A stretch of DNA of 64,000 bases from Acuticoccus sediminis (GTDB lineage: Bacteria > Pseudomonadota > Alphaproteobacteria > Rhizobiales > Amorphaceae), in contig NZ_QHHQ01000004.1 of the NCBI RefSeq assembly GCF_003258595.1, positions 1-64,000 of the forward strand, read 5' to 3'. Of the stretch, positions 14,736 through 30,452 are shown in pieces; within the stretch, counting starts at the first letter, position 1; each line of letters starts with the position of its first letter. The notes under the pieces are model-generated. The model made no database searches and was not told the origin of the DNA. It was given only the letters and a program-made list of their open reading frames with translations. The translations under genes were made by a program, and so were the position numbers.

Positions 14736-15014
14736 GATCTGGCTCGGCTACTTTGGTGTCGCCCCTCTTAACGAGTGGACGGGACCGGCTCCAGACCAAG
14801 AATGCCCCACGGCGCAACATCCGTGCCACCGGATATGCCAATTCCGCCGATTGCATCGTCCGTTGACGCCGTGGACCGGCGAGGCCACCCTGATCCCGGC
14901 CCAGCGGATAACGTGGGTCATTCATCCCCTCACGCCAACCCTTCGGTTCGGCGCGACAAGCCCATACGCCACGTCTGTCCCGGTCTGGGCGGCCGGCGCC
15001 AGACGAGTTGCTTC

Positions 15015-16070
15015 ATGGACCTCACCGTCCCAACGATCTTCGACGGCCATAACGATGTGCTCTCCCGCCTCGCCGGCGGCGGACGGGCGGCCGCAGCCAA
15101 CACCTTCCGTTCCGGCGCCGGCCACATCAACCTGGAGCGCTCGCACCTCGGCGGCTTCGGCGGCGGCTTCTTCGCGGTCTGGATCCCCTCCTCCGGTGGC
15201 GGCACGGTCGACTTCGACGCCATGACCAAGCCGCGTTACAGCGTGCCGCTGCCGCCCCCCGTGGCGCAGCCGGAGGCGCTCGAGGCCGCGATGCGGCAGG
15301 TCTCCATCCTGATGGCGCTCGAGGAGGCGGACGAGCTGAAGATCTGCCGCACGGCGGGCGAGATCGAGGCGACGCTCGGCACCGAACGTCTCGCCGCGAT
15401 CTTCCACATCGAGGGCGCCGAGGCGATCGACCGGGACCTCGCGGTGCTGGACGTGCTCCATGCGGCGGGCCTGCGGTCGCTGGGACCGGTGTGGAGCCGG
15501 CCCAACCGGTTCGGCCACGGCGTCCCCTTCCGCTTCCCCTCCTCGCCCGACACCGGGCCCGGCCTCACGGAGGACGGCCTGCGCCTCGTCGACCGGTGTC
15601 TCGAGCTCGGCATCATGGTGGACGTCTCGCACCTCAACGAGGCCGGCTTCTGGGACGTGGCGAAGCGCACCACGAAGCCGATCGTCGCCACCCACTCCAA
15701 CGCCCACGCGATCACGCCGACGGCGCGCAACCTGACCGACCGGCAGCTCGCCGCGGTCGCCGAAACCGGCGGCGTCGTCGGGATCAACTTCGCCTCGGCG
15801 TTCCTGCGCGAGGACGGGCGGATGGAGGGCGACGTGCCGCTCGCCACCGTGCTGAAGCACATCGACCACCTCATCGCCATCCTGGGCGAATCGGGCCTGG
15901 CGCTCGGTTCGGACTATGACGGCGCCCTCGTCCCGCACGCCCTCGACGGGGTGGAGCGCCTGCCCAACCTGCGCCACGCGATGCGCGAGCACGGCTACGG
16001 CGAGGCGCTGATCGCCCGGATCTGCCACGGCAACTGGGTCGACGTCCTCCGCCGCACCTGGGGCGCCTGA
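15015..16070 (+). CDS. M19 family membrane dipeptidase (renal dipeptidase-like)
   Basis: A 351-residue zinc amidohydrolase-fold dipeptidase. Metal ligands can be placed: HND at 12-14, Glu in FHIEGAEAI, His in MVDVSHLNE, His in ATHSNAHAI, and Asp in LGSDYDG. Members cleave dipeptides, sometimes with a D-residue at the C-terminal position. Start 15015 is chosen because IFDGHNDVL begins the family; the upstream frame to 14775 is compositionally random. No signal peptide is seen, so a cytoplasmic enzyme is likely. It precedes a dipeptide-type ABC importer on the same strand, 424 bases away, a sensible functional partner. Confidence 0.9.
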   Translation: MDLTVPTIFDGHNDVLSRLAGGGRAAAANTFRSGAGHINLERSHLGGFGGGFFAVWIPSSGGGTVDFDAMTKPRYSVPLPPPVAQPEALEAAMRQVSILMALEEADELKICRTAGEIEATLGTERLAAIFHIEGAEAIDRDLAVLDVLHAAGLRSLGPVWSRPNRFGHGVPFRFPSSPDTGPGLTEDGLRLVDRCLELGIMVDVSHLNEAGFWDVAKRTTKPIVATHSNAHAITPTARNLTDRQLAAVAETGGVVGINFASAFLREDGRMEGDVPLATVLKHIDHLIAILGESGLALGSDYDGALVPHALDGVERLPNLRHAMREHGYGEALIARICHGNWVDVLRRTWGA

Positions 16071-16494
16071 CCGCGCCTCCGCCTCCCGGCGAGGCTCCCC
16101 CGAGAGGCCGGACCGCACCCGGCCTCCATACCGCCCGTTCCCCACGAGGCCCGTTCTCCACAAGGCCCGTTCTCCACATCGCCGCCTCCGGGCCCGTGCG
16201 GCGCGCGGTCGCATACCCGCATGCCTCGCATCGGCGGCCGCGATACGCGCGCGGCGTGCATCGCCGCGCCTGATGCTTTCACTTATCGCGGGCTGGAACA
16301 TCGCTTGCACGCGAACGTCCTCCAGGGCCGCACTCCTGCCGCAATGCTTACGGTTTCACGGGGCTTGCGATGCCGGACCGCACCCCGCTTAACTTATGGC
16401 GGCCGGCAGACCGCGCTCTGCGGAGCGTCAGGCACAACCGGCCGCACAACACATGGGCTCGCGCTGCACCACCAGCGCAGAATGAGGGAAGCAC
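16071..16494. other. 424-bp intergenic region upstream of the peptide transporter
   Basis: No gene found. It contains a 16-base tandem repeat and probably the promoter of the ABC operon. Confidence 0.5.
16134..16181. repeat. Three tandem copies of a 16-base unit
   Basis: CCCGTTCCCCACGAGG, CCCGTTCTCCACAAGG and CCCGTTCTCCACATCG follow each other without gaps. Function unknown. Confidence 0.7.
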
Positions 16495-18087
16495 ATGAGA
16501 AATCTTCGCGCGCTCCTGGCCGCGGCTGGAGTCGCCACGCTCGCCGCGGCGAACCCGGCGCTCGCGGCGACGCCGGACGACATGCTGGTCATCGCCAACC
16601 GGATCGACGACATCGTCTCGCTCGACCCGGCCGAGACGTTCGAGTTTGCCGGCAACGACGTGAACCGCAACGTCTACGGCCGCCTCGTCAACTTCGACCC
16701 GGCCGACCTCGATGCCGGCTACCAGCCCGACATCGCCGAGAGCTGGAAGGTCTCCGAGGACGGCACCGCCATCACCTTCACCATCCGTGACGGGATGACC
16801 TTCCACTCCGGCAACCCGGTCCGCGCCGAGGACGTCGCCTTCTCGCTCGCGCGCGTCATCAAGCTGAACCTCACGCCCTCGTTCATCCTCAGCCAGTTCG
16901 GCTTCACGCCCGAGAACGTCGACGAGAAGATCACCGTCGACGGCAACACGGTGACCCTCGCCTTCGACGCGCCGTACGCCGAATCGTTCGTCCTGAACTG
17001 CCTCACCGCCGGCGTCGGCTCGATCGTCGACAGGGAGCTGGCGATGGAGCACGAGGTCGACGGCGACCTCGGCCACGACTGGCTGAAGACCAACTCGGCC
17101 GGCTCCTACGCCTACAAGCTGACCAACTGGCGCCCGTCCGAGGCGGTCACGCTGGAGGCGAACCCGGACTTCTACCTCGGCGAGCCGGCGATGAAGCGCG
17201 TGATCGTGCGCCACATCTCCGAGAGCGCCAACCAGCGCCTGCTGCTGGAGCGGGGCGACATCGACGTCGCGCGCAACCTCAACCCGGAGGACGTCTCCGG
17301 CATCGAGGGCGCGGACGCCATCAAGGTCGTCGACGAGCTGCGCGGCCGCATCATGTACGCGAGCTTCAACCAGAAGAACGAGTTCAGCACCAATCCGAAG
17401 GTCGTCGAGGCGCTGAAGTACGCGGTCGACTACGAGGGCATGGTCAACTCGTTCCTGAAGGGCCAGTGGACCATCCACCAGACCTTCCTGCCGCAGACCT
17501 ACTTCGGCGCGCTCGACGAAACGCCCTACAGCTTCGACCTCGAGAAGGCGAAGTCGCTCATCGAGGAGGCGGGGGTGACCACGCCGGTCACGCTCGGCCT
17601 CGGCGTCCGGGACGCGCAGGAGCGCATCGAGATCGCCCAGTCGATGCAGAACACGCTGGGCCAGCTCGGCATCAACCTCGACATCACCGTCGGCACCGGC
17701 GCGCAGACGCTGGGCAAGTACCGTGCGCGCGAGCTCGACGTCTACGTCGGCGAGTGGGGGCCGGACTATCCGGATCCGAACACCAACGCGGCGACCTTCT
17801 CGTCCAACCCGGACAATTCGGACGCGGCGAACGCCACCGGCATCCTCGCCTGGCGCAACGCCTACGACCCGGGCGAGCTGACCGAGATGACGAAGGACGC
17901 GGTGCTCGAGAAGGACACCGAGAAGCGACGCCAGATGTACCAGGAGATCCAGCAGAAATTCCTCGAGACCGCCCCGTTCGTGATCATGTTCCAGAAGATC
18001 GAGCAGGCGGCGATGCGTGACAACGTCGAGGGGCTGTCGCTCGGCCAGGCGATCACCTCCGCGGCGTACTGGAAAGTCAGCAAGTAG
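16495..18087 (+). CDS. Dipeptide/oligopeptide ABC transporter substrate-binding protein
   Basis: A 530-residue periplasmic SBP_bac_5 protein. The Sec signal peptide (MRNLRALL...ANPALA) ends near residue 25. The family pattern follows: SLDPAETFEFAGNDVNRNVYGRLVNFDP, LAESWKVSEDGTAITFTIRDGMTFHSG, NPVRAEDVAFSLAR, then the C-terminal lobe with YVGEWGPDYPDPNTNAATF. First gene of a five-gene operon. The permease start codon follows its stop directly. Substrate class (peptides, possibly opines or other small cations) is inferred from family only. Confidence 0.9.
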   Translation: MRNLRALLAAAGVATLAAANPALAATPDDMLVIANRIDDIVSLDPAETFEFAGNDVNRNVYGRLVNFDPADLDAGYQPDIAESWKVSEDGTAITFTIRDGMTFHSGNPVRAEDVAFSLARVIKLNLTPSFILSQFGFTPENVDEKITVDGNTVTLAFDAPYAESFVLNCLTAGVGSIVDRELAMEHEVDGDLGHDWLKTNSAGSYAYKLTNWRPSEAVTLEANPDFYLGEPAMKRVIVRHISESANQRLLLERGDIDVARNLNPEDVSGIEGADAIKVVDELRGRIMYASFNQKNEFSTNPKVVEALKYAVDYEGMVNSFLKGQWTIHQTFLPQTYFGALDETPYSFDLEKAKSLIEEAGVTTPVTLGLGVRDAQERIEIAQSMQNTLGQLGINLDITVGTGAQTLGKYRARELDVYVGEWGPDYPDPNTNAATFSSNPDNSDAANATGILAWRNAYDPGELTEMTKDAVLEKDTEKRRQMYQEIQQKFLETAPFVIMFQKIEQAAMRDNVEGLSLGQAITSAAYWKVSK

Positions 18088-21907: not shown

Positions 21908-22492
21908 TCAGATGGCGGTCAGCGTCCAGTCGACGATTTCGAGGGCGGCCTGGCGGGCGGCGGCGTTCATGCCCTCCGCCGCACTCTCCACGTCGTCGCT
22001 GCCGATCGGCACGGCGGCGTCGAAGACGCGGGTCCGCAGGACGCGGCCGTCCGAATCGTTCAGGAGTTTCACCGCGACTTCGACCCGCGCGCGATTGCCT
22101 TGGTAGGTCTCCACCTGGAACGCACGGACCTCGGTCACGACCTGATAGTTGATCAGGAGGCTCTGCCCCGGCAGGCCCACGGCGTGGACCCGGCCGGAGT
22201 TCTCGAACGTGTCGAGCAGGATGCGCTGCAGCACCTTCGGCGCCGCGTCCTGGTAGGCCACCTTCGGATAGTAGGCGAGCGTGAGCGCGGTCGGCTTGAC
22301 CGCGATCTTCGCCGTCGAGAGCGCCTCCAGCGCACGGGGCTCCGGCACCAGGATCTGCGCCGTGGTGCCGCTGGCCACCGCCGGATTGGGCAGCGCCGTC
22401 AGTTCGTAGATCGCCTCGACCTTATCGCCCCCGGCACACCCGATGAGGGCGAGCACGAGCGCCAGCGAAGCAACAGCGCGTACTCTCCTCAT
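21908..22492 (-). CDS. ABC-type transport auxiliary lipoprotein of the Mce/Mla operon
   Basis: A 194-residue lipoprotein with a lipobox (LALIGCAGG) around Cys19. It has the ABC_trans_aux/PqiC-like pattern: YELTALPN, ILVPEPRALEALSTAKIAVK, YYPKVAYQDAAPKVLQRILLDTFENSG, and LLINYQVVTEVRAFQVET. Relatives sit at the outer membrane and partner MCE proteins. The ATG overlaps the stop of the giant MCE gene by four bases (ATGA). Last gene of the operon. Confidence 0.85.
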   Translation of the reverse strand: MRRVRAVASLALVLALIGCAGGDKVEAIYELTALPNPAVASGTTAQILVPEPRALEALSTAKIAVKPTALTLAYYPKVAYQDAAPKVLQRILLDTFENSGRVHAVGLPGQSLLINYQVVTEVRAFQVETYQGNRARVEVAVKLLNDSDGRVLRTRVFDAAVPIGSDDVESAAEGMNAAARQAALEIVDWTLTAI

Positions 22493-25400
22493 CGGCGCTG
22501 CGGCGAATACCGCGGAGCGTTGTCACCACCGAAGATGATGCGGCTTGGGTCTCGGTCAAAACTCGACACGGCACTCTCGATGGATCTCAAGGTACTACGA
22601 CCTTGATTGATGAGGGCCCTCAGATCGTCAAGGCCGCTCTGGCTGAACCTCGAAAGGCCGTTAGCGATTTGGCCAGCGCGTGGCGCAAATGCAGCAGCAA
22701 CCTGCTCAATCGAGGCCGTTGCCTCATTCACACCATTGAAGACCCGCTGCACCTCGCCGCCCAGGACGGCGTTCGCACGGTCGACCAGCGTGCCGAGCTT
22801 GTTGGACGCGTTCTCGACGTTGACCGAGATCCGCTTCACCCGGTCGAGCACCTCCTGCACGAGGCCGTTCTCGCCGTCGGCCCCGTCGAGCGACTGAGTG
22901 ATCTGCTCGGCCGACTGGACCACGTCGTCGATGGCCTTGCCGATGGCGTCGGTGCGGGACCCGACCGCCGTCGCCACCTTCTGCGCGTTGTCGAGGATGC
23001 CGTTGATCGCGCTCGTGTTGATGGAGGCGACCGTGTCGGCGACCCCGTTGGCCGCGCGCGAGACGGACTGGACGATGCCGTCGATCGACGGCGCCTGGTC
23101 CCGCAGCGCCCCCGCGAAGGTCGACACCGAATCGATGGCGGAGCTGATCTCGTCCGCCCGGGCCGAGACCGCCGCCGCCACCTGGTCGATGCGCCGCGAG
23201 GCGTCGCCCACGGTGGAGACGATCTGCGAAACGTTCTCGCGCTGGTCCGACAGCGTGAGGGTCACGTCGCGCACGTTGGTCATGATGGCGCGGACCATCA
23301 CCGGATCGACCGCCGTCACGACCTCGGTGACCGCGTCGACCACCGGGTCGAGCTGTCGGCGGAGCGCCGGCAGCGTCGCGGTGAACGTCTTCACGTCCGC
23401 CACCGCGCTGTTGGCGGTGTCGATCGCCTCGGTGATCGTGCCGAGCTGGCCACGCACGCGGCCGGTGATCTCGGCAACGTCGTCGGCGGCGACGCCGGCG
23501 GTGGCGATGAAGTGCTGCACCTGCGGGGCGCTCGCGCCCAGCGTGTCGGTCAGCGTCTTGGCGCTGGCGACGATGTCGCTGATCGCCTGAGGATCCACCG
23601 CCTGCAGCACCGCCGAGACGTTCTCCACGCCCGGCTGCAGCGTTTCAGCGTAGCCCGGGAGGGTGTCGGCGAAGGTGCGCGCCGAGGCGACCGCGGCGCG
23701 CGCGTCGTCGATCGCGCCCGTCACCTGCGGCATCTGCGCCGAAACGGTCGCCGCGATCTGGCGCGCGTCCGCCGCCGTCCCGTCGACGTTGGCGATGATG
23801 GAGCGGACGTTCTCGGTCTGGCCGACGAGCGTCTCCGTCATCGACTTCACGTCGCTGACGATGCCCTGCACGGCGGTCGGATCGATCGCCGAGAGGACGG
23901 CGGAGACGTTCTCGATGCCGGGCTGCAGGGTCGTCGCGAACTCCGGCAGCGACTGGGCGAAGACGCGCGCGTCGGCGACGGTGGCCGCCGCGTTGTCGAT
24001 CGCGCCCTCGATCGCCGGCATGCGGGCCGCGACCGACGTCGAGATCGTTTCCGCATTGCCGAGCGTGCTCTCCGCCGACGTGATGATGTGGTCGATGGAG
24101 CCGGTGCGGTTGCTGATCGTGTCGGCGAGCGTGCGCACGCTGCCGACGATGCCCTCGACCGCGGTCGGATCCACCGCCGACAGAGCGGCCGAGAAGTTCT
24201 CGATCCCCGGCTGCAGCGAGGCGACGAGCTGGGGCGCCGCGTCCGCCGCCTGGCGGGCGCTGGCGATCGCCGCGGTGGCGTTGTCGATGGCGGTGCCGAT
24301 CTCGGTGCGGCGCGCCGCCACCTGCTCGATGATCACGCGCGCATCGGCGGCGACGGAGTTGGCGTCCGCCACCACGCCTTCGACGCGGTTGACGATCCGC
24401 TCCACCGCCGGTCCCTGCCCGGCGAGCGTCGCCGTCAGATCCTCGACATTGGCGACGATGGCGTCGATGGCGGCCGGGTCGATCGCCGACAGGGCGTCGG
24501 CGACATTCTGGATGCCCGGCTGCAGCGCGTCCGCCATCTGCGGCAGCTTGTCGGTCGTCTCGCGGACGCTGGCGATGGCGGCGGTGGCGTTGTCGATCGC
24601 CGTGCCGATCGCCGGCATGCGCTGGGCGACGGCCGAGGAGATCGCCTCGGCGCGCTGCGCGGTGCCGTTGGCCGAATCGATGAACTGCGAGATCGCCTCG
24701 TTCTTGCCGGCGATGGTCTGGGTGAACGATTCGACATTGGAGACGACGGCGTTGATGCGCGTCGCGTCGACCGCCCGCACCGTGGCGGCGGCGTCGCTGA
24801 GCAGCGTCTCGGCGCTGGTGACGAGCTTCGGCGCGCCCTCGGACGCCTCGCGCAGGTTGGTCACCATCTGCGCGGCCTGATCGAGCGTCGTGCCGATCGA
24901 TTCGCTGCGGGCGCTGAGGATCGCGGTCACGCTGTCGATGCCCTTGGCGGCGTCGGTCGCGGAGGCGACGAGGCTCGCGACGTTCTCCGACTGCCCGGCG
25001 AGCGTGGAGGTGACGGTCTGGACGTTGTCGACGATGCCGGTGACCTTCTCCGGCGTCACCGCGGCCGCGGCCTTGCTGAGGTTCTCGATCACCGGGGCCG
25101 CAGTCTGGACCGCGCCGCGCGCGTCGGCGATCAGGCTGGAGGCGTCGGTGATCGCCTGGTCCAGCGAGTCCTTGCGCTGGGCGATGACGTCGGTGATCGA
25201 GGCGACGTCGGTGCTGATGCGCGAGGCGTTGTCGATGAGGTTGCCGATGGCGTCCGAGCGGTCGGCGAACGCCGTGCTCGAGGTCGCCACGTTGGTCAGG
25301 ATCTTCGTGATCGTCCCGGCGTCGATCGTCCGGACCACCTGGTCGGCCGCGGCGACCGCGTCGTTCAGCGTGTTCGCGGTGTCGCTCAGGCGGGTGATGA

Positions 25401-26193
25401 TGCCGCCGACATTGTCGATCACCGTGCCGGCCTTCTGGCCGAGCTGCGGCAGCTCGCCGGTGAAGCTCTCGACGTTGCCGACGATGGTTGTGACGCGAGA
25501 CGGGTCGATGGCGGCGAGGATGCCGTTGGCGTTCTCGACGACGCCGGCGATCTTCGGCGCGGCCTCACCGATCGCGGAGGCGGCGTTGGAGAAGTCCGTC
25601 ACCATAGCCGGGATCTGCGGCGAGGCCTGGGCCAGGTTGTCGGTGATCGTGCGGACGTTCTGGACGACGCCGGACAGGTTCCCCTGGTTCTCGTCGACGA
25701 GCTGGCGCACCGAGCCCAGCGTGGAATCGAGCCGGCCGAGGACGCTCTGCAACGTGTCCAGCACGTTGGTGAAGGCGCTCGTCGCGGCCTGGAGGGTCGG
25801 AACCTTGTCCTCCTTCTCGGCCGCCTCGAAGATCGATTCGCCCGTGCCGCCGACCAGCGAGACGTAGGCGACGCCCGTCAGCCCCTGCGAGGCGAGCTGG
25901 GCCTGCGTGTTGACCTTGATCGGCGCGGAGGGGTTCACCCGCGTGATCGCGATGACGTTGTCGCCCCCTTCCGGCGGAAACTCGAGCGAGGTCACCTCGC
26001 CGATGCGGATACCGTTGAAGTAGACGCCCGCGCCCGTCGACAGACCCGTCACCGCCTCGGGGAAGATGATGCGCAGCGCCTCGGTCGCGCCACTGCCAGA
26101 GGACCGGTAGAGCCACCAGAGCGAACCGAACGCCCCTGCGAGGACGACGAGCACGAAAATGCCAATCGCGACGTAGTTGGCACGGGTTTCCAT
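22489..26193 (-). CDS. Giant MCE-domain protein with about ten 96-residue helical repeats
   Basis: A 1234-residue periplasmic subunit of the Mce/Mla lipid transporter. One membrane anchor lies at residues 7-30. A single MCE/MlaD domain follows at about 38-115 (FPEAVTGLSTGAGVYFNGIRIGEV, LASQGLTGVAYVSLVGG). The remaining 1100 residues are Ala/Val/Asp-rich helix. A (V/I)DPxx(V/I)xx(I/V) motif recurs at residues 230, 291, 380, 476, 572, 675, 771, 867, 963 and 1059. LQPG-like motifs stand 15 residues before it in the later copies. Spacings are mostly exactly 96. The tail ends FGGDNAPRYSPQRR. MlaD-type proteins are typically 150-450 residues, so this length is exceptional. It starts 49 bases after the ATPase gene. 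Confidence 0.9.
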   Translation of the reverse strand: METRANYVAIGIFVLVVLAGAFGSLWWLYRSSGSGATEALRIIFPEAVTGLSTGAGVYFNGIRIGEVTSLEFPPEGGDNVIAITRVNPSAPIKVNTQAQLASQGLTGVAYVSLVGGTGESIFEAAEKEDKVPTLQAATSAFTNVLDTLQSVLGRLDSTLGSVRQLVDENQGNLSGVVQNVRTITDNLAQASPQIPAMVTDFSNAASAIGEAAPKIAGVVENANGILAAIDPSRVTTIVGNVESFTGELPQLGQKAGTVIDNVGGIITRLSDTANTLNDAVAAADQVVRTIDAGTITKILTNVATSSTAFADRSDAIGNLIDNASRISTDVASITDVIAQRKDSLDQAITDASSLIADARGAVQTAAPVIENLSKAAAAVTPEKVTGIVDNVQTVTSTLAGQSENVASLVASATDAAKGIDSVTAILSARSESIGTTLDQAAQMVTNLREASEGAPKLVTSAETLLSDAAATVRAVDATRINAVVSNVESFTQTIAGKNEAISQFIDSANGTAQRAEAISSAVAQRMPAIGTAIDNATAAIASVRETTDKLPQMADALQPGIQNVADALSAIDPAAIDAIVANVEDLTATLAGQGPAVERIVNRVEGVVADANSVAADARVIIEQVAARRTEIGTAIDNATAAIASARQAADAAPQLVASLQPGIENFSAALSAVDPTAVEGIVGSVRTLADTISNRTGSIDHIITSAESTLGNAETISTSVAARMPAIEGAIDNAAATVADARVFAQSLPEFATTLQPGIENVSAVLSAIDPTAVQGIVSDVKSMTETLVGQTENVRSIIANVDGTAADARQIAATVSAQMPQVTGAIDDARAAVASARTFADTLPGYAETLQPGVENVSAVLQAVDPQAISDIVASAKTLTDTLGASAPQVQHFIATAGVAADDVAEITGRVRGQLGTITEAIDTANSAVADVKTFTATLPALRRQLDPVVDAVTEVVTAVDPVMVRAIMTNVRDVTLTLSDQRENVSQIVSTVGDASRRIDQVAAAVSARADEISSAIDSVSTFAGALRDQAPSIDGIVQSVSRAANGVADTVASINTSAINGILDNAQKVATAVGSRTDAIGKAIDDVVQSAEQITQSLDGADGENGLVQEVLDRVKRISVNVENASNKLGTLVDRANAVLGGEVQRVFNGVNEATASIEQVAAAFAPRAGQIANGLSRFSQSGLDDLRALINQGRSTLRSIESAVSSFDRDPSRIIFGGDNAPRYSPQRR
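22803..25596 (-). repeat. Internal 288-bp (96-codon) repeats in the MCE gene
   Basis: Residues about 200-1130 hold ten degenerate repeats. DP-type motif spacings are 61, 89, 96, 96, 103, 96, 96, 96, 96; each deviation from 96 is a multiple of seven. Copies starting at residues 660, 756 and 852 are the closest to each other. Confidence 0.85.
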
Positions 26194-26242
26194 CAGTGAG
26201 CCCTACTCGTTATGCGGCGGCCGGCCGCGACAGACTGAAACA

Positions 26243-27136
26243 TCATTCAGCGTCCACGAACCGCCCGCCGCGGACGCCGCGGAAGTATTCGCGAACCCAG
26301 GGGTGGTCGTAGTCGATCAGGTCCTGGACCGGGCCGTTGACGATGACACGCTTGTCGGCAAGCACCGCCACGCGGTCGCACACGTTCCACAAGGAATCGA
26401 GGTCGTGGGTCACCATGTAGACGGTGAGCCCGAGGGTATCGCGCAGGCCCGCGATCAGGTCGTCGAAATTGGCCGCGCCGATCGGGTCGAGCCCCGACGT
26501 CGGCTCGTCCACGAAGAGGAGGTCCGGGTCGAGCGCCAGCGCGCGGGCGAGACCGGCGCGCTTGATCATGCCGCCCGACAGCTCGGAGGGGAGCTTGTCC
26601 GCCGCGTTGCGGGCGAGGCCGACCATGTCGATCTTCATCAGCGCCAGCTCGTCCATGAGCTGCTTGCTCATGTTGGAGCCCTGCTCCTTCATCGGCACCT
26701 GGATGTTCTCCTTCACCGTCAGCGAGGAGAACAGCGCGCCCATCTGGAAGAGGACGCCGTAGCGGCGGTTGAGGAGCGCGCGCTGCGGTACCGACAGCTT
26801 GTCGACGTCCTCGCCGAAGAGGCGGATGGTGCCGGAATATTTCGGCACCAGGTCGAGGATGGTGCGCATCAGCACGGACTTGCCCTGTCCCGAGCCGCCG
26901 ACGAAGCCGAGGATCTCGCCGCGCCGCACGTCGAGGTTCAGGTTCTTGAACACCGTGAAGGAGCCGAAGCGGACCTCGACGTCGCGCACCTCGATGACGT
27001 GCTCGTCGGTCGGCTGGACGTGCTTCAGACCGTCGTCCTCCGCGGCCCTGCCGTGATGCGCGGGGACCTCGGTGACCCGCCGCGTCCCGTCCGGCAGGGT
27101 CTCTTCCATCGGGGCGGTATCGTCTTCGTCGCTCAC
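26243..27136 (-). CDS. Mla/Mce-type ABC transporter ATP-binding protein
   Basis: A 297-residue MlaF-like ATPase. A 45-residue acidic N-terminal extension is followed by IEVRDVEVRFGSFTVFKNLNL, Walker A GGSGQGKSV, the Q-loop FQMGALFSSLTVKENI, signature LSGGMIKR, Walker B LLFVDEPTSGLDP and H-loop VTHDLDS. FQMGALFSSLTV is typical of lipid-transport ATPases. Start is GTG at 27136, overlapping the permease stop by one base. Confidence 0.93.
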   Translation of the reverse strand: MSDEDDTAPMEETLPDGTRRVTEVPAHHGRAAEDDGLKHVQPTDEHVIEVRDVEVRFGSFTVFKNLNLDVRRGEILGFVGGSGQGKSVLMRTILDLVPKYSGTIRLFGEDVDKLSVPQRALLNRRYGVLFQMGALFSSLTVKENIQVPMKEQGSNMSKQLMDELALMKIDMVGLARNAADKLPSELSGGMIKRAGLARALALDPDLLFVDEPTSGLDPIGAANFDDLIAGLRDTLGLTVYMVTHDLDSLWNVCDRVAVLADKRVIVNGPVQDLIDYDHPWVREYFRGVRGGRFVDAE

Positions 27137-28302
27137 TAGATCCCCACTGCCGCGAAGAAGACGGCGAACAGGCCGTCAACGACGATCACCAGGAAGATCG
27201 CCTTCACCACCGAGCTCGTCGTCTGACGGCCCAGCGATTCGGACGACCCGCCGACCTTCAGGCCCTCGGAGCAGCCGACCAGACCGATGATGAGCGCCAT
27301 GAACGGCGCCTTGGCGATGCCGACCCAGAACTCCAGCGGCGTCACCACCTCGTTCAGCCGGCGCAGGAAGACGTCCGGCGAGATGCCGAGGTTGCTCCAC
27401 GAGATGAGCATCGCCCCGATGATGGCGGCGATGTCCGACAGGAAGGCGAGGAGCGGCAGCGCGAGGATGAGCGCGATGAGGCGCGGCACCACCAGCACCT
27501 CGACCGGGTCGAGGCCGAGCACGTTGAGCGCGTCGACCTCCTCGCGCATGCGCATCGAGCCGATCTCGGCGGTGAACGCCGAGCCGGAGCGGCCGGCGAC
27601 GAGGATCGCCGCGAGCAGCACGCCGAGCTCGCGCAGGATGAGGATGCCGGACATGTCGACGACGAAGATCGTCGCGCCGAACGAGGACAGGTAAAAGCCG
27701 CCCTGCTGCGCCACGATGAGGCCGACGAGGAAGCTCATCAGCATGACGATCGGCACCGCGCCGCGGCAGGCCCGGTCGAAGTGCGACAGCACGGAGATGA
27801 CGCGAAGGCGCGAGAAGTGCGAGAACACCGTCGACAGGCGGAAGCCGAACACCCCCAGCATCGACAGCAGGTTGACGAAGTCGTGCCCGATGCTGACCGT
27901 GCTCTGGCCGACGGAGCTGAGGCAGCGGACGATGGCCGGCGGCTGGCGCGGCCGATCGAGAAGCTGCGGGATGTGGTTCTCGATCTCGTCGAGCAGGAAT
28001 TCCATGCGCTGGCTGACGTTCGCCAGCTTGACGCGGTTGCCGACGAACTCGGCCCGTGCCCGCTCGCGATGGATGATCCAGGCGCCGGCGGTGTCGGCGG
28101 TGGTCACGTTGCCGAGATCGAACGTCACCTCCGCCGCGTGCTGCCCCCGACCGGGCGCGGAGAGAGGATCGAGCGCCTTGATGGCCCGTTCCGCCGAATC
28201 GGCACCGCTCACCGTCCAGCTGCCGCCGAAGGTGGCCGTGAATTTGTCGCCGTCGTGGTCGACTTTGACCGATGGCGTCGGGGATGGGGCCTGCGCGTCC
28301 AT
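27136..28302 (-). CDS. STAS-MlaE fusion: lipid ABC transporter permease
   Basis: A 388-residue protein. Residues 1-130 form a STAS-like domain (VTFDLGNVTTADTAGAWIIHRER). The MlaE permease domain follows, with its amphipathic entry helix, VPIVMLMSFLVGLIVAQQGG, the ELGVLLAAILVAGRSGSAFTAEIGSMRMREEVDAL loop and the conserved C-terminal segments. In Mla of E. coli the STAS protein MlaB is separate; fusion to the permease is common in alphaproteobacteria. First gene of the four-gene operon; the promoter must lie in 28303-28464, divergent from dgcN. Confidence 0.92.
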   Translation of the reverse strand: MDAQAPSPTPSVKVDHDGDKFTATFGGSWTVSGADSAERAIKALDPLSAPGRGQHAAEVTFDLGNVTTADTAGAWIIHRERARAEFVGNRVKLANVSQRMEFLLDEIENHIPQLLDRPRQPPAIVRCLSSVGQSTVSIGHDFVNLLSMLGVFGFRLSTVFSHFSRLRVISVLSHFDRACRGAVPIVMLMSFLVGLIVAQQGGFYLSSFGATIFVVDMSGILILRELGVLLAAILVAGRSGSAFTAEIGSMRMREEVDALNVLGLDPVEVLVVPRLIALILALPLLAFLSDIAAIIGAMLISWSNLGISPDVFLRRLNEVVTPLEFWVGIAKAPFMALIIGLVGCSEGLKVGGSSESLGRQTTSSVVKAIFLVIVVDGLFAVFFAAVGI

Positions 28303-28464: not shown

Positions 28465-29475
28465 ATGGAACTCGAACGCCCCTATCTGTTGTTTCTCGGC
28501 GACGTTCCGGACGCGCTGGCCGCCAAGACCGGTCTCGGTATCGTCGATTGGCGGCGCGATTGGTGCGTGGGTCAGTGGCGCCTGCCGAACTGCAAGGCCG
28601 ACGCCAAGCTCCCCGAGATGAATGCGACGGACGCCGCCGCCGCGGGCGCCAAGACGATGATCGTCGGCGTCGTCAACGCGGGCGGTGTCCTTCCGGATCA
28701 CTGGATCGCCTCCATCGTCGAGGCGCTGGAGGCCGGGCTCGACGTCGCGAGCGGGCTGCACAAGCCGCTCGCCAGCGTGCCGGCCATCGCCGAGGCCGCG
28801 GCCAAGACCGGCCAGCGGCTGCTCGACGTTCGCATCTCCAAGCAGAGCTTCGCTACGGGCAAGGGCAACAAACGCTCCGGCAAGCGCCTCCTGACGGTCG
28901 GAACCGACTGCTCCGTCGGCAAGAAGTATACCGCGCTCGCACTTGAAGCCGGCATGAATGCCAAGGGCTTCGACGCGACATTCTGCGCCACCGGGCAGAC
29001 CGGGGTGTTCATCTCCGGCCGGGGCGTCGCCATCGACGCGGTGGTCGCCGACTTCATCTCCGGTGCGGCCGAGTGGCTCACCCCGGCGACGGAGCCGAAC
29101 GCCTGGCAGATCGTCGAGGGTCAGGGCTCGCTGTTCCACCCGTCCTTCGCCGGCGTGTCGCTCGGCCTGCTGCACGGTGCGCAGCCCGACGCCTTCGTCG
29201 TCTGCCACGAACCGACCCGCACCAAGATGCGCGGCGTCGAGACCCCGCTGCCGACCATCGGCGAGGTGATCGAGGCGACGATCGCGATGGGCAAGCTGAC
29301 CAACCCGGCGATCAGGCCGGTCGGCATCGCCGTCAACACCGCCGCGCTCGACGAGGGAGAGGCACGGGCGATGCTCTACTCGGTTGCGACGGAATACAAC
29401 CTGCCGACGATCGATCCGGTCCGCTTCGGGGTCGACCCGATCGTCGACGCCCTCGCCGCGGAGTATCTCGCGTGA
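28465..29475 (+). CDS. dgcN: DgcN-type N-acetyltransferase (DUF1611), D-glutamate metabolism
   Basis: A 336-residue DUF1611 protein. The N-terminal YLLFLGDVPDALAAKTGLGIVDWR and RLPNCKADAKLPEM pattern is followed by a P-loop-like LLTVGTDCSVGKKYTALAL and ATGQTGVFISGRG. In marine proteobacteria the pair DgcN/DgcA converts D-Glu to N-acetyl-D-Glu and then to the L-form (established for that family; transferred here by similarity and by the dgcA neighbour). Stop and dgcA start overlap by one base. Confidence 0.88.
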   Translation: MELERPYLLFLGDVPDALAAKTGLGIVDWRRDWCVGQWRLPNCKADAKLPEMNATDAAAAGAKTMIVGVVNAGGVLPDHWIASIVEALEAGLDVASGLHKPLASVPAIAEAAAKTGQRLLDVRISKQSFATGKGNKRSGKRLLTVGTDCSVGKKYTALALEAGMNAKGFDATFCATGQTGVFISGRGVAIDAVVADFISGAAEWLTPATEPNAWQIVEGQGSLFHPSFAGVSLGLLHGAQPDAFVVCHEPTRTKMRGVETPLPTIGEVIEATIAMGKLTNPAIRPVGIAVNTAALDEGEARAMLYSVATEYNLPTIDPVRFGVDPIVDALAAEYLA

Positions 29476-30452
29476 TGCAGCTCACCGCTCGCGCCGAAGA
29501 GTTCCCGATCGCCGGGGTGTTCTCGATCTCGCGCGAGCGGCGCACCATCGCCCGCGTCGTCGTCGCGATGATCACCGACGGCACCTTCACGGGCCGCGGC
29601 GAGTCCGTGCCCTACCCGCGCTACGGCGAGTCGGTCGAGGGCGTCGTCGGCGACATCGAGGCGATGGCCGAGAAGGTCGCCGCCGGGCTCACCCGCGAGG
29701 AGCTTCAGGAGGCGATGGAGGCCGGCGCCGCGCGCAACGCCATCGACCTCGCCATGTGGGACTTCGAGGCCAAGCGCAGCGGCCAGCGCGTCGCCGACAT
29801 GGTCGGCCGCACGATGTCGCCGGTGACGACCGCCTATACCATCGGCCTCGGCGAGCCGGACGAGATGGCCGAGGCGGCGGCGGCCGCGAGCGAGCGCCCG
29901 CTGCTGAAGATCAAGCTCGGCCGGCCGACCGGCGACGACAAGCGCATCGCCGCCGTGCGCGCCGCGGTGCCGAACGCGACGCTCATCGTCGACGCCAACG
30001 AGGGCTGGAGCGAGAACAACCTTCTCATCAACATGTCCGCCTGCGCGGCGGCGAAGGTGGCGATGATCGAGCAGCCCCTGCCCTCCCGCCGCGACGGGGC
30101 GCTGGCGACGATCTCCCACCCGGTGCCGATCTGCGCCGACGAGAGCGTCCACACCTCCAAGGATCTCGCCGCGCTGAAGGGCCGCTACGATGCGGTCAAC
30201 ATCAAGCTCGACAAGACCGGCGGGCTGACGGAGGCGCTGAAGGCCGTGGCCGAGGCCGAGCGTGTCGGCCTCAAGGTGATGGTGGGGTGCATGGTGTCGA
30301 CGTCGCTCGGTATCGCTCCGGCGATGCTGCTGGCACCGGGTGCCGACTATGCCGATGTCGACGGCCCGCTGATGCTGGCCAATGACCGCGACGGCGGCCT
30401 CACCTTCGATGGCTCGACCGTCTACCCGCCCAGCCCCGAACTCTGGGGCTGA
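29475..30452 (+). CDS. dgcA: DgcA-type N-acetyl-D-glutamate racemase (enolase superfamily)
   Basis: A 325-residue member of the dipeptide-epimerase branch of the enolase superfamily. Catalytic features: KIKLG (Lys of the first KxK), metal ligands Asp in LIVDANEGW, Glu in MIEQPLP and Asp in ICADESVH, and the second Lys in AVNIKLDKTGG. Without dgcN this would be called an L-Ala-D/L-Glu epimerase; the overlap with dgcN supports the DgcA assignment. The ATG at 29475 is chosen over the open frame further upstream. Confidence 0.86.
   Translation: MQLTARAEEFPIAGVFSISRERRTIARVVVAMITDGTFTGRGESVPYPRYGESVEGVVGDIEAMAEKVAAGLTREELQEAMEAGAARNAIDLAMWDFEAKRSGQRVADMVGRTMSPVTTAYTIGLGEPDEMAEAAAAASERPLLKIKLGRPTGDDKRIAAVRAAVPNATLIVDANEGWSENNLLINMSACAAAKVAMIEQPLPSRRDGALATISHPVPICADESVHTSKDLAALKGRYDAVNIKLDKTGGLTEALKAVAEAERVGLKVMVGCMVSTSLGIAPAMLLAPGADYADVDGPLMLANDRDGGLTFDGSTVYPPSPELWG

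Follow-up and report, generated by a model that had tools for sequence, protein, structure and literature searches.

The closest described relatives of the locus analysed here are the Mpc systems of Brucella abortus and other Hyphomicrobiales. In B. abortus, MpcEFDA co-purifies and MpcD has been modelled as a tube of ~25 nm (Lannoy et al. 2025, PMC12436622). The parts of that report used here mention a 'repeating domain' and length variation among homologues, and within those parts neither a unit length nor a copy number is given (PMC12436622). More generally, published models of MCE bridges match the length of the needle to the width of the periplasm.

We analysed a window of 64,000 nucleotides, positions 1 to 64,000 of contig NZ_QHHQ01000004.1 of the marine bacterium Acuticoccus sediminis. 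Its minus strand carries four tightly packed genes at 21908-28302, coding for an MlaE permease, an MlaF ATPase, an MCE protein and a PqiC-like lipoprotein. The first gene (27136..28302) encodes an MpcE-like permease (PF02405, 237.7 bits) with an N-terminal STAS-like region, residues 34-105 of which match PF13466 STAS_2 with 28.1 bits (E 2.3e-6), just below the cut-off of 29.2. It overlaps by 1 base the gene of an MpcF-like ATPase (26243..27136; PF00005, 105.3 bits), whose top NCBIfam match, MlaF PRK11831, scores 187.3 bits and thus lies below the model cut-off of 441. The MpcD-like MCE protein of 1234 aa follows (22489..26193) and shares 4 bases with the gene of the MpcA/PqiC-like lipoprotein of 194 aa (21908..22492; PF03886, 55.5 bits). 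The NCBIfam search gave no family name for the lipoprotein. Close to its N-terminus it contains the sequence LIGC, which by its motif we take to be a lipobox. As in the Mpc systems of B. abortus and other Hyphomicrobiales, MlaE and MlaF accompany a protein with a single MCE domain and a helical extension, the PqiC-like lipoprotein comes last and no MlaC is found, as far as the excerpted description of those systems goes; a STAS domain is fused to the N-terminus of MlaE in those systems, where the A. sediminis permease has the match just below the cut-off (PMC12436622). Judged by gene content and domain matches, the locus is an Mpc-type lipid-transport operon, a kind already described in Brucella in 2025 (PMC12436622).

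Profile searches of the A. sediminis genome (7.76 Mb, 97.25% complete) returned a single match to PF02470, the 1234-aa protein, and a single match to PF03886, the operon lipoprotein. By this search, the 1234-aa protein is the only MCE protein found in the genome. In the same 97.25% complete genome, no match to MlaC (PF05494) was obtained at E 0.001 and none to MlaA (PF04333); the Escherichia coli and Caulobacter controls were positive for both profiles. The operon is flanked within the window (14775-18087 and 28465-30452) by genes for an M19 dipeptidase and a family-5 solute-binding protein on one side and by DUF1611 and enolase-superfamily genes on the other; these neighbours could form a cluster for the salvage of dipeptides or murein peptides. 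An antisense open reading frame of 1198 codons at 22603-26199 on the plus strand was rejected as a gene, since relatives and dN/dS values below 1 back the minus frame, and its openness appears to be a side effect of GC-rich codon use.

The initial annotation had described a giant single-domain MCE protein at 22489-26193. This description holds: the minus-strand frame encodes 1234 aa with one MlaD/MCE match (PF02470) at residues 42-115, and the protein exceeds the cut-off of the MCE family model TIGR00996 with 179 bits. No second MCE domain was found in the protein besides this PF02470 match, which is followed by about 1070 mostly helical residues. In an AF2 model of residues 1-390, built with 46 relatives, a predicted membrane helix (residues 2-31) precedes a confident MCE fold, the two together covering residues 1-115 (25849..26193, minus strand), and long helices of low confidence follow. 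The mean pLDDT is 68, ten-residue blocks of residues 1-110 reach 77-97, and the helix prediction beyond residue 190 is of low confidence. In a Foldseek search of this model against the PDB, Mce1 of Mycobacterium smegmatis ranks top, followed by MlaD, with PqiB at rank 25. The MCE part is also the most conserved section of the protein. Its dN/dS values (residues 1-150) are 0.07 and 0.15, against 0.20-0.55 in 13 other segments picked as clear counterparts, and all 15 segments compared stay below 1.

The helical part is built of tandem repeats. When residues 201-1180 are compared with themselves, the top offset is 96 (mean BLOSUM62 score 1.01), followed by 192, 295, 391 and 199; the maxima of 300 plain shuffles reach -0.18 and those of 300 shuffles keeping position modulo 7 reach -0.19. 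The 96-residue self-comparison proposed as a check thus peaks exactly where it was expected, far above shuffled sequences. Self-comparison and a repeat HMM together delimit eight contiguous helical units at residues 291-1058 (23020..25323, minus strand), which begin at 291, 380, 476, 572, 675, 771, 867 and 963 and measure 89, 96, 96, 103, 96, 96, 96 and 96 residues. An additional HMM match lies ahead of them at 173-267, out of the 96 step, and scores about as well as the first unit (32.9 versus 32.5 bits); beyond residue 1058 the HMM matches are only fragments. The earlier count of ten repeats was accordingly generous, while the period of 96 stands. Similarly, of the ten places listed as DP-type motifs, six have a literal DP (230, 572, 675, 771, 867 and 963), the others reading DA (291 and 476), TP (380) and NT (1059). 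The unit at residues 572-674 (24172..24480, minus strand) is longer by an insertion of 7 residues, which the two closest relatives share in the same position.

The claim that the repeats keep a heptad register is correct for changes in length, which mostly involve whole heptads (see below), but not for the unit itself: 96 equals 7 x 13 + 5 and is not a multiple of 7. It corresponds instead to 27 helical turns, and the strongest hydrophobic period is 3.56 (96/27 = 3.556), the second being 3.43 (96/28). We read the period of 3.56 as pointing to a near-straight helix with a one-sided hydrophobic stripe, not to a classic coiled coil with a period of 3.5. When the units are averaged, the harmonic of 27 turns comes out strongest, with 0.20 of the power, above the shuffle mean of 0.094 and below the 99.9% shuffle level of 0.225; the phase of the stripe drifts by ~115 degrees from end to end. 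The units share common prolines at columns 2, 52, 76 and 84, which could be genuine helix breaks. An AF2 model of four units, based on only 7 sequences (the query and 6 rows), draws each unit as one helix broken only at the unit junctions. Because of the small alignment and a mean pLDDT of 43, this picture weighs little, and we take from it nothing more than that the repeat region is predicted to be helical.

Long MCE proteins are found in all eight Acuticoccus genomes compared, with lengths of 1038, 1132, 1140, 1232, 1234, 1330, 1508 and 1620 aa, and the 96-residue period rises above shuffles in each of them. The genus is described as having oval cells with one peak end in the part of the account used here (PMC5747140). 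Comparison of the number of repeats among close relatives, which had been suggested as a check, gave 1140, 1234 and 1330 aa for the three closest proteins, i.e. steps of 94 and 96 residues or about one unit each. Their end units correspond across genomes and the middle units differ. A. mangrovi has five similar units in a row, with nucleotide identities between neighbours of 86, 97, 99 and 96%, and in another genome (G005) one neighbouring pair is 94% identical and the next 83%; the near-identical units of A. mangrovi suggest recent duplication. Delimiting units by HMM matches, with degenerate flanks (spacings of, e.g., 61, 68 and 28) left out, gave 67 units in the eight proteins: 52 of 96 residues, nine of 89, five of 103 and one of 114. 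Thus, 66 of the 67 deviate from 96 by either 0 or 7 residues. The exception, in G006, exceeds 96 by 18 residues, or roughly five helical turns. Single HMM columns give some ill-fitting spacings where the HMM alignment is poor, mainly in G006 and Amorphus. The units of odd length number 21, with 15 from Acuticoccus and 6 from Amorphus; in 13 of them the HMM alignment locates an indel of 7 residues, near columns 32-38, 46-47, 58-70, 68 and 72-82; seven have no placed indel and the 114-residue unit is missing 3 columns. The exact positions of the gaps are uncertain, and since they fall at several columns, no single loop seems to absorb them. Taken together, the sequences indicate that lengthening of the MCE middle by whole units and mostly whole heptads is real across the genus: the helical middle has been stretched about sixfold through copies of a 96-residue block, and both ends are of the usual kind. 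In one Acuticoccus genome (G004; L009/L010), the long MCE gene is accompanied by a further open frame, located at a contig edge (G004:C93) and having two MCE matches.

More widely, homologues were collected with the N-terminal alignment, the full-length sequence having given no relative in a scan of genome contigs; 77 of the best 80 of 572 confirmed loci were usable, and locus L056, which had no ORF match, was left out of the comparison. Lengths were counted from M to stop, as open-frame values overstate them (831 becomes 553 aa, 796 becomes 526 aa). In 141 distinct proteins, a sample picked by similarity to the N-terminus of the A. sediminis protein, the longest one outside Acuticoccus has 834 aa. 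In the sister genus, Amorphus (including Amorphus coralli), the protein has 642 aa in both genomes and an 89-residue period. Repeats are not unique to Acuticoccus: in 46 of the 64 sampled proteins of at least 430 aa, a period exceeds the highest value reached by 60 shuffles, and unit lengths vary. The strongest periods outside the genus are 93 (L054), 82 (L198) and 94 (L183). At the other extreme the periods are marginal, and two of these weakest ones (L052 and L058) fall below the shuffle maximum in another comparison with a different offset range. Two genera from a different family within the order (L053 from G135 and L054 from G162) have strong repeats of their own, of 115 and 93 residues, as if repeat expansion had arisen more than once. 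The idea of an order-wide length quantum was dropped, with best offsets differing widely (e.g., 61, 82, 89, 93, 94, 96 and 115). So was a rule that length equals 5 modulo 7 (offsets of 110 or less), which was seen before it was tested and which describes 20 of 27 proteins outside Acuticoccus; counted by distinct lengths overall, it applies to no more than 5 of 12. In Lysobacteraceae (Xanthomonadaceae), all 14 homologues among the best 80 of 572 loci are exactly 308 aa long, in a set that otherwise ranges over 247-1620 aa (L116, L122, L123, L131, L132, L135, L138, L139, L145, L149, L150, L151, L166 and L168).

The C-terminus is the second conserved end. Its last 20 residues follow the pattern (N/D)PxRxIFGG, continued by a short Arg-rich Pro-x-Tyr tail, and this tail (residues 1214-1234, RDPSRIIFGGDNAPRYSPQRR; 22492..22554, minus strand) is kept in all eight Acuticoccus proteins. 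Among the 77 usable loci of the best 80 of 572, all 57 that have a lipoprotein gene show the full tail and none of the 20 without one does, 18 of these 20 retaining the FGG core. Here, presence of the lipoprotein means a match to the A. sediminis lipoprotein in the fetched locus DNA (phmmer, E 0.01), the tail pattern was widened once after inspection of these same 77 loci, and the species are related, so that loci are not independent. With the same pattern, 64 further non-identical loci gave 53 of 62 with the lipoprotein and 0 of 2 without it. Of the nine misses, five end in Pro-x-Tyr or similar by eye, L180 and L181 are without an aromatic residue, L222 is without a tail and L186 seems truncated. 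All 22 proteins that have no lipoprotein alongside are short (247-306 aa), and 75 of the 119 lipoprotein-bearing ones would have a spacer above 30 nm if it were one helix. We infer that the tail may be the element that docks on the lipoprotein. In a locus from a Hyphomicrobiales MAG (Centralia_MAG_73, L133:1264-2412), one reading frame runs from an MCE domain through a very short piece of helix-like sequence directly into a PqiC-like lipoprotein domain, with neither needle nor tail. The fusion suggests that the MCE protein and the PqiC-like lipoprotein act together; it could also have arisen by deletion or from faulty assembly.

On sequence and by analogy, the 1234-aa protein is probably MpcD, a subunit of an ABC lipid transporter of the Mpc type, forming a hexameric tube-like bridge that docks on the lipoprotein and has grown by units and heptads; the bridge itself is likely. 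By analogy with MlaD, PqiB, Mce1 and Brucella Mpc, six copies would form an MCE ring on the MlaE/MlaF transporter of the inner membrane, their helices would form a hydrophobic tube, the tails would dock on a ring that the PqiC-like lipoprotein makes at the outer membrane, and phospholipids would move between the membranes under control of the ATPase. The tube would lengthen by in-frame tandem duplication of whole units together with gain or loss of whole heptads, proposedly because such steps leave the hydrophobic stripe facing the lumen. What complicates this scheme is length. At 0.15 nm per residue, and with about 160 residues deducted for both ends, a spacer of one straight helix would measure 161 nm in A. 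sediminis (the initial figure of 160 nm was thus right), 219 nm in A. mangrovi and 132-219 nm across the eight Acuticoccus proteins. A straight tube of 161 nm is about five times as long as a periplasm of ~30 nm is wide, and our preferred guess is that it fits by a strongly bent or oblique course.

The initial annotation had concluded that the repeats must fold back or bundle. This is unsupported: the HMM places 7-residue indels at several positions and close relatives differ by plus or minus one unit, and either observation agrees with helices running the same way throughout. Folding back at each junction, with the units as straight legs of ~14 nm in an antiparallel bundle of about periplasm height, would suit the order of size of the periplasm and the AF2 helix breaks at the unit junctions, although that model has low confidence. 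It clashes with the single-unit steps between 1140, 1234 and 1330 aa, because an extra leg would put the tail, conserved in all eight proteins, at the other membrane, and we regard it as highly improbable. A compact column escapes this objection. If each unit formed its own helical hairpin or short bundle, starting and ending in the same direction, units could stack solenoid-like within 25-30 nm; the Mpc bridge would be kept, only its middle not being a straight-helix tube, and the C-terminus would arrive at the outer membrane whether the number of units is odd or even. The length problem would disappear, and the prolines at columns 52, 76 and 84 with a glycine at 85 could mark turns. The spread of the placed indels (13 of 21), however, reveals no single hairpin tip, residues gained or lost in one leg would put it out of step with its partner, and AF2, albeit at pLDDT 43, drew one helix per unit. 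We consider this arrangement possible but unlikely. With both one-unit zig-zags and hairpins within units fitting poorly, we tentatively propose helices running in the same direction, in a tube that would be bent or lie flat.

Alternatively, length may hardly matter. A flexible helical rope could simply hold the lipoprotein near the MCE ring, its units piling up by slippage and drift, in line with rapid change, a wide range of copy numbers and the relaxed constraint outside the MCE part (dN/dS up to 0.55 versus 0.07). Such a slack tether is, in our view, rather unlikely, given that the units stay in frame and nearly all have either 96 residues or 7 more or fewer, that dN/dS is below 1 in every segment compared and that long forms are kept by 8/8 genomes. 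For the bridge we favour, an improbable, more specific form would be a continuous lipid tube of ~130-220 nm running obliquely or along the envelope and linking distant inner- and outer-membrane sites, with its length set in steps of ~14 nm by the copy number of the 27-turn unit. Drawn as one straight helix, the spacer would be longer than 30 nm in 75 of the 141 distinct homologues sampled and longer than 130 nm in all eight Acuticoccus proteins. For much of the family, therefore, the needle cannot be pictured as straight unless the tube departs from an upright course. With its eight different lengths and conserved ends, Acuticoccus offers a natural series in which the needle question can be tested within one genus.

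Among known structures, mycobacterial Mce1 (8fed/8fef) is the best match, sharing an MCE ring and a helical needle on an ABC transporter; the TM-score is 0.27 across the whole low-confidence model, and the Mce1 chains have 310-399 modelled residues. Mce1 is not known to have a PqiC partner. It further differs in being a heterohexamer (PMC12436622, in the parts used). PqiB likewise has a helical needle, which is held by the PqiC lipoprotein ring (PMC10897342, as excerpted), but contains three MCE domains and works with PqiA instead of an ABC transporter (PMC12436622), as opposed to the one MCE match in A. sediminis. LetB/YebT also spans the periplasm, but there it is the MCE domain itself that is repeated, seven times (PMC12436622), whereas here the repeat is of helix only. 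Mla of the E. coli type uses the MlaC shuttle and MlaA, neither of which was matched in the A. sediminis genome. Closer in design is the elongated MlaD of Veillonella parvula, with an MlaEFD core, one MCE domain, a long helix and a proposed transenvelope tunnel (PMC10665443). That protein has 419 aa, with about 150 helical residues and a C-terminal beta-barrel; the portion of the account used here describes neither MlaA or MlaC nor a lipoprotein partner (PMC10665443). The A. sediminis protein continues in helical units to residue 1058 and terminates in a short tail. By title and abstract, a search of the open-access literature, with few subscription papers or preprints, found no paper reporting repeat units in Acuticoccus or giant MCE proteins of this genus. 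The proposal of a new type of lipid-bridge stalk survives in part: a stalk is the best reading and its extreme length is real, but the Mpc kind has already been described (PMC12436622). Whereas Brucella MpcD has 331 aa in the excerpted description (PMC12436622), the A. sediminis protein has 1234 aa, eight clear tandem units and one-unit steps between species. The kind is known; what is new is the size and its origin by whole-unit growth.
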